Source: Salipaludibacillus agaradhaerens
Lineage (GTDB): Bacteria > Bacillota > Bacilli > Bacillales > Salisediminibacteriaceae
Direction of reading: 5' to 3'
NCBI RefSeq assembly: GCF_002019735.1
Contig: NZ_KV917378.1
Location: 1,297,869 to 1,361,868 of the forward strand
DNA length: 64,000 nt
Below, piece after piece: positions 33,150 through 33,513 of the stretch; within the stretch, counting starts at the first letter, position 1, and each line of letters begins with the position of its first letter. Both the position numbers and the translations under genes were made by a program. The notes beneath the pieces are model-generated. The model did no database searches. It worked only from the letters and a program-made list of their open reading frames with translations, and was not told where the DNA came from.

Positions 33150-33190
33150 AAAAAACATTAAAGTAGCTTCTATGCCCGTATCTTTAATGT
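33150..33190 (-). terminator. Terminator of the sinI-like gene
   Basis: ACATTAAAG and CTTTAATGT form a 9-bp stem and are followed on the minus strand by TTTTTT. It begins 3 bp after the sinI-like stop, closing a monocistronic unit. Confidence 0.85.
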
Positions 33191-33192
33191 TG

Positions 33193-33315
33193 CTATTTTT
33201 GCTTTTCCTTCAAAAAGGATCGCACTTCTTCTGGTGTCAGCCCTAGTTCTTTCGCAGCCTGAATCAGTGCCACCCATTCTTGGTCATGTTGTTCTTCTCT
33301 TTTAATAGTGAGCAT
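33193..33315 (-). CDS. sinI: SinI-family anti-repressor (40 residues)
   Basis: A short frame from the ATG at 33315, preceded by AAGGGAGG at 9 nt. The core DQEWVALIQAAKELGLTPEE and then VRSFL matches the SinI domain: Glu-Trp pair, Leu-Ile, Ala-Lys, then S/TPEEIR-x-FL. In B. subtilis SinI binds SinR through this helix-hook and frees biofilm matrix operons from repression. No sinR lies next to it, so its partner must be elsewhere. It has its own terminator, a c-di-GMP-I riboswitch in its leader and Spo0A-box-like sites upstream. The Shine-Dalgarno GGGAGGC can pair with the GCCTC that follows the aptamer. Confidence 0.85.
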   Translation of the reverse strand: MLTIKREEQHDQEWVALIQAAKELGLTPEEVRSFLKEKQK

Positions 33316-33336
33316 GAGGTAAGCCTCCCTTATGTC

Positions 33337-33436
33337 ACTCCATTGAGGCGACTGTGCAATCATAGAATATAATAATTCCTTAGATTCACAGTTTTGCGTC
33401 CCGACCTTTCGATAGGGTTGCCTTTTCTGAATGAGT
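33337..33436 (-). promoter_or_regulatory. c-di-GMP-I (GEMM) riboswitch in the sinI leader
   Basis: Read on the minus strand. The core hairpin has GGCAACCC, a GAAA tetraloop in ATCGAAAGGT, and GGGACGCAAA, the diagnostic c-di-GMP-I block (33391-33422). The second hairpin is closed by ACTGTG/CACAGT and carries CTAAG opposite TATG (33362-33384), the 11-nt receptor that docks the GAAA tetraloop. ACTCATT (33430-33436) can pair with AATGGAGT (33337-33344) to close the three-way junction. Downstream, GCCTC can pair either with GAGTGAC-side sequence or with the Shine-Dalgarno (33323-33331), which suggests translational control; ligand turning sinI off is inferred from pairing only. Confidence 0.85.
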
Positions 33437-33495
33437 AGATGATATAAATAGTAGTATGTGTATTAAATTCCTTATAACGAACGATAGCTAGTAAA

Positions 33496-33513
33496 TTCGA
33501 CATAACCGACAAA
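33496..33513 (-). promoter_or_regulatory. Tandem Spo0A-box-like sites upstream of sinI
   Basis: On the minus strand TTTGTCGGT is followed by ATGTCGAA. The second holds the core TGTCGAA exactly; the first differs from it in the last two bases. They start 9 bp apart, about one helical turn, and lie 60 bp before the aptamer, where the promoter must be. B. subtilis sinI is also activated by Spo0A~P. Confidence 0.5.

Follow-up and report, generated by a model that had tools for sequence, protein, structure and literature searches.

We report that a 40-codon gene of the SinI anti-repressor family, located in a 64-kb stretch (the window) of the Salipaludibacillus agaradhaerens genome, is likely led by a translational c-di-GMP-I riboswitch, which most likely acts as an ON switch, and that its promoter probably receives input from Spo0A. 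The aptamer is recognised by its covariance model and the gene by its protein family, the two recur together in related genomes, and helices that could compete over the start of translation are present in the computed folds of the leaders. The aptamer-sinI pair is new as a widespread circuit and not as a kind of molecule. The features of the window locus are given in Table 1.

Table 1. Features of the aptamer-sinI locus, numbered along the 64-kb window
Feature	Position	Strand	Basis
sinI-like gene, 40 aa, ATG start at 33315, stop TAG ending 33193	33193..33315	-	Pfam SinI
c-di-GMP-I (GEMM) aptamer	33344..33432	-	RF01051, 55.8 bits, full length
Aptamer GCC, first C (33348) taken as the expected ligand-contacting C92	33347..33349	-	alignment of leaders
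Extended P1 helix, 33436-33427 with 33347-33337, one C-C mismatch, one bulged G	33337..33436	-	predicted pairs
Alternative hairpin burying the start codon (approximate limits)	33307..33339	-	predicted fold
Shine-Dalgarno (SD) GGGAGG	33324..33329	-	read from sequence
Presumed Spo0A-box consensus TGTCGAA	33496..33502	-	sequence match, enrichment in relatives
Weaker second box TGTCGGT, imperfect, starting 9 bp from the first	33505..33511	-	read from sequence
A/T-rich hairpin resembling a terminator, with U run, 3' of the stop	33150..33191	-	z -1.94, weak

At gathering thresholds the aptamer is the only Rfam match in the window (E 3.4e-08; gathering threshold 35 bits), and its 3' end lies 28 nt from the sinI ATG. 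The preliminary description of this DNA had read a c-di-GMP-I aptamer from a core, a GAAA tetraloop and its receptor, and had suggested scoring it with the Rfam model; all these features are present and the score is well above the threshold. In the covariance-model alignment the window leader keeps the equivalents of G20, A47 and C92, the expected ligand-contact bases (the numbering being, we presume, that of the Vc2 structure). The C92-equivalent is a C in 126/126 leaders, a position that was itself located by seeking a C, and the window clade has a C at an aptamer position that is an A in 122 of the 126. In four other leaders (L013, L050, L095 and L099) an A replaces the G at the G20-equivalent base, a substitution associated in other GEMM RNAs with 3',3'-cGAMP sensing. 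A plasmid search with the window leader gave no match.

The 40-codon frame scores 49.0 bits against Pfam SinI (PF08671; cut-off 31.4), as expected from the SinI-like gene proposed in the preliminary description, and sequence comparison matches its product to B. subtilis SinI (PDB 1b0n, E 4.1e-05). The NCBIfam equivalog NF046031 was missed by the protein (37.8 bits, cut-off 80), which is therefore called SinI-family and not a B. subtilis-type equivalog. Absence of the protein from related genomes would have spoken against the gene; proteins 95% and 90% identical to it are encoded in two other genomes of the genus, both preceded by an aptamer. A spurious short open reading frame was ruled out, as Pfam assigns 29/29 proteins, i.e. 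the window protein and 28 chosen named ones, to SinI; D11, W14, L17 and A21 do not vary in the alignment of these 29. In three close species the sinI frame stays open for 16 codons 5' of its ATG, into the aptamer (33363-33316, minus strand, in the window), and this extension has an ATG of its own. Downstream of the window sinI lies a YbjQ-type gene, and upstream a DUF444 gene and a PrkA-type kinase gene, which we take to be the sporulation genes yhbH and prkA.

Each of the three SinI genes in the source genome is preceded by a c-di-GMP-I aptamer, the fourth SinI match being the C-terminal domain of SinR. The fourth aptamer of the genome (G000:C1:3122627-3122714; L001, L148) is followed by a terminator-like hairpin and by genes for a pyridoxal-dependent decarboxylase and a methyl-accepting chemotaxis protein. 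Among eight genomes of the genus, the aptamer is present at 25 of the 26 loci found with the window protein (the exception is L016); counted by Pfam, 26/30 SinI frames have a listed aptamer and 4/30 do not, and SinI lies behind 26 of 46 aptamers. The arrangement, which the preliminary description had suggested looking for in relatives, is common in the family. Specifically, 35 genomes have 79 short SinI frames, of which at least 57 have an aptamer 53-81 nt upstream and at most 22 are without a listed one; these counts are lower bounds, as 17 aptamers fall outside those listed. Short and long frames were divided at 105 aa (a chosen cut). One SinI with a longer open frame is also aptamer-led, which gives at least 58 frames in total; none of the other 35 long frames, presumed to be SinR-like, has an aptamer among those listed. 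Of the 29 family genomes with a SinI match, 28 have at least one aptamer-SinI pair. Chance co-occurrence was ruled out by the spacing in the 58 frames. In these and all later counts of recurrence, folds and promoters, close relatives are weighted equally.

A DNA-pattern scan of named genomes for the aptamer-sinI pair gave 111 loci, by record title mostly from many genera of Bacillaceae and a few from Paenibacillaceae; no title among the 111 names B. subtilis or a species of the B. cereus group, and many read 'Bacillus sp.'. Rfam confirms the aptamer in all 18 pattern loci chosen for this purpose, four of them as the c-di-GMP-I-GGC family. One contig is titled Chryseobacterium sp. ISL-80 (L041) and has a leader that closely resembles the leaders at Mesobacillus loci; the record is probably mislabelled. 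Bacillaceae-1 RNA (RF01690) is present in two aptamer-sinI loci (L020:850-916 and L087:3552-3618).

Neither reading the sequence nor a terminator scan revealed a terminator between the aptamer and the start codon of the window leader, and the aptamer therefore probably acts on translation of the SinI-family gene, as had been suggested earlier. For the folding analysis 131 leaders were collected and 126 used, leaving out three duplicates, one leader at an edge and one with an unrecognised core; L051 is without a start codon, and pairing was analysed in 125 leaders and the upstream region in 124. In the predicted folds, pairing between the CC of the aptamer and the SD region has a mean probability of 0.67, vs 0.30 with shuffled spacers (Wilcoxon p 1.8e-13, relatives kept in). 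The pairing exceeds 0.5 in 86/125 leaders and is above the leader's own shuffles in 91/125, not above in 34/125. With the aptamer omitted from the fold, the SD is more open in 114 of the 126 leaders (by >0.2 in 77) and less open by >0.2 in two. Since the ligand would hold those aptamer-end bases, the expected ligand-contact C among them, that pair with the ribosome binding site (RBS), c-di-GMP should turn translation on, and for most leaders (86/125) the folds thus predict that c-di-GMP switches SinI translation ON. Covariation in the short P1 helix is confined to one of its three pairs: pair 3 is paired in 85/126 leaders (shuffles 70.5, maximum 80), pair 1 equals the shuffle mean (106 vs 106.6) and pair 2 does not leave the range of the shuffles (101; mean 97.3, maximum 105).

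This common anti-SD hairpin was sought in the window leader (L004) and not found: it is among the 32/125 leaders with low CC-SD pairing, and its SD hardly changes when the aptamer is omitted (0.62 to 0.63). It belongs to a class of seven loci of the genus in which an extended P1 is set against a hairpin containing the start codon, the 3' strand of the former overlapping the 5' strand of the latter. In further species the extended P1 shows compensatory changes, and its own-pair duplexes average -6.65 kcal/mol vs -4.10 for cross pairs; the best own pair of the start-codon hairpin (-12.2) is matched in strength by a cross pair (-12.4). With P1 forced, the start codons of the window clade and of L014/L015 become more open, that of the window leader going from about 5% (0.05, unconstrained) to about 46% (0.46), while the window SD closes somewhat (0.73 to 0.50); within the same class, the start codon hardly opens in L012 (0.05 to 0.08) and does not in L013 (0.53 to 0.51). 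In the window group and L014/L015 the fold without ligand is more stable by 7.3-10.5 kcal/mol, so ligand energy and folding order would have to decide. For the window leader ON is our best guess from these models, less certain than for the family.

On the reading that we prefer, at low c-di-GMP the aptamer end and the sequence that follows would be free to form a hairpin over the RBS or the start codon, and SinI would not be made. At high c-di-GMP the bound ligand would lock the closing helix of the aptamer and block this hairpin, such that SinI is translated and sequesters SinR. The source genome would then have three sinI genes under such leaders, one of them beside sinR.

A candidate SinR partner (HTH_3 and SinI domains; L146:2572-2895) is encoded at 0.97 Mb of the genome, which is a single 4.32-Mb contig, and the window gene lies at 1.33 Mb. 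A convergent, aptamer-led sinI belongs to the sinR locus; the window copy is not adjacent to sinR. Between sinR and the convergent sinI lies another SinR-like HTH gene, which has no SinI domain (L146:3304-3609). Across the pattern loci, 66/110 have a one-piece sinR homologue within 2.5 kb, which ties the aptamer-led genes to SinR; a looser count of 74/110 included matches to sinI itself (six loci overlap), and the stricter one is used here. Where 2.5 kb are available on both sides, the homologue is present in 23 of 36 loci.

With respect to the output, matrix genes may be released by the window sinI, as had been suggested earlier. The genome has 11 GGDEF matches and a Wzz-led, exopolysaccharide-like run of 14 same-strand ORFs, which from its sequence is a probable exopolysaccharide cluster. 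A profile search of the genome gave no match to PF12389 (camelysin/TasA), and the 18 kb read at the Wzz-led cluster contain no GTTC-N8-GAAC palindrome.

The alternatives concern the sign of the switch, the role of the protein and the state of the aptamer. That the same riboswitch works in the opposite direction, with c-di-GMP hiding the RBS and turning SinI off, appears distinctly unlikely. The SD of the window leader, predicted to be less open with P1 forced, would fit this sign, and so would Bc1 of B. thuringiensis, whose RBS and AUG, according to the available text, enter a stem on c-di-GMP addition (PMC11218506); folds alone can accordingly not fix the direction of a switch. Opposed to it are the SD regions that become freer without the aptamer in nearly all leaders, with only two differing markedly the other way, and the start codons that open with P1 forced in the window clade and L014/L015. 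Moreover, high c-di-GMP is generally associated with biofilm, which also argues against SinI being switched off. Decay of the window aptamer to a relic, leaving SinI controlled at the promoter only, is highly improbable. Its score is the lowest of the genome's four aptamers (55.8 vs 68.0, 76.2 and 80.5 bits), and it has non-standard pairs and a changed base 3' of the core, changes that are common to the two closest relatives; the expected ligand-contact bases are kept, however, its counterparts in two other species score 56.9 and 53.1 bits, and compensatory changes occur in the extended P1 of further species.

It is also unlikely that the riboswitch is real and the small protein has another role, either as an SlrA-like SinI paralogue or as the partner of a different regulator. 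The distance of the window copy from sinR, the score below the NCBIfam SinI equivalog cut-off and the genome lacking a TasA-family match would agree with this, and B. subtilis does have a SinI paralogue, SlrA; SlrA, however, is likewise said to sequester SinR in the part of the source available (PMC8072697). The invariant D11, W14, L17 and A21, and a SinR in the same genome with both HTH and SinI-type domains, favour an anti-repressor that would bind SinR, and this, together with translation turned on by c-di-GMP, is the reading with which we continue.

TGTCGAA, which we take to be the Spo0A-box consensus, occurs twice in the window where 7.4 copies are expected from shuffles, so the single box alone is no evidence. 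Support for it comes from enrichment upstream of related genes: TGTCGAA precedes 27/124 aptamer-sinI genes vs 1.78 in shuffles (maximum 5; relatives kept in), and these upstream sequences make Spo0A input at aptamer-sinI promoters in general likely. Two Spo0A-like boxes one helical turn apart had been described earlier; the exact box stands, and the second deviates from the consensus and lies 9 bp off. With c-di-GMP acting on translation and Spo0A on the promoter, the two would form a two-input gate. A weak promoter match would start the RNA near 33432, leaving out part of the P1 extension. Upstream of the aptamer in four of 124 regions (0.08 in shuffles), all from the sister species L012-L015, there is a GTTC-N8-GAAC palindrome, which presumably is like a SinR operator, and SinR feedback on sinI is possible in these species; the upstream region of the window clade has only GTTC-N8-GAA. 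As to the terminator placed after the stop codon in the preliminary description, a plausible 10-bp A/T-rich stem begins 1 nt past the stop (-9 kcal/mol) and leads into a run of six U, the stem including two of these, but it is weak (11/200 shuffles are as good) and is not listed by the terminator scan of the window.

The earlier remark that no c-di-GMP riboswitch was known on sinI has to be corrected, since an RNA-seq paper on B. methanolicus MGA3 lists '(c-di-GMP)-sinI', a putative c-di-GMP riboswitch in the sinI 5' UTR (PMC4342826). In its available text this entry is a table row derived from RNA-seq and Rfam, giving no expression platform, direction or distribution (PMC4342826). The literature searched, with most subscription papers outside reach, held no functional study of a sinI c-di-GMP switch and none on its frequency. 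The B. cereus group switches at cbpA ('on') and mcpA ('off') (PMC7793685) and Bc1 (PMC11218506) share aptamer class and leader position with the window aptamer; as far as these sources are available, they lead adhesin or chemotaxis genes, whereas the window aptamer leads a small anti-repressor gene that could relay the signal to a regulon. Array data for B. thuringiensis, cited as unpublished, associate high c-di-GMP with higher sinI expression, the route not being given in the text available (PMC7793685). The window gene and its genome resemble the sinI-sinR system of B. subtilis in a SinI-family protein, a SinR with a matching domain and probable Spo0A input, as that system is described in the accessible part of the source (PMC8072697). 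In contrast, SinI but not RF01051 is matched in the B. subtilis control genome, and c-di-GMP is said, in the text available, not to control B. subtilis biofilm (PMC4879592).

If our reading is true, the second messenger reaches the SinR switch of many relatives by a direct molecular route, which B. subtilis is without, and raising c-di-GMP is predicted to raise SinI. In general, c-di-GMP serves as a signal to settle. We tentatively consider it possible, without holding it probable, that direct c-di-GMP control of SinI translation is an old and general biofilm wiring that Bacillaceae and some Paenibacillaceae share and the B. subtilis model does not have. Where a genome has several sinI copies, aptamers of differing quality would then read c-di-GMP in a graded manner, with Spo0A acting at the promoter and, in some species, SinR closing the loop.

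Finally, an 'antisense-acting' c-di-GMP-I riboswitch has been described at a sinR-like gene of Paenibacillus, and its authors propose antisense control of sinR (available text of PMC9943018). This case is similar to ours in that a c-di-GMP-I aptamer faces a sinR homologue. Since sinR is convergent with an aptamer-led sinI in 37 of our 66 sinR-linked loci, a missed sinI is a possible alternative for the Paenibacillus case, as far as the accessible text describes it (PMC9943018), and some 'antisense' riboswitches facing sinR genes could be leaders of small genes missed by annotation. The two Paenibacillaceae pattern loci with a SinR match are themselves not convergent.
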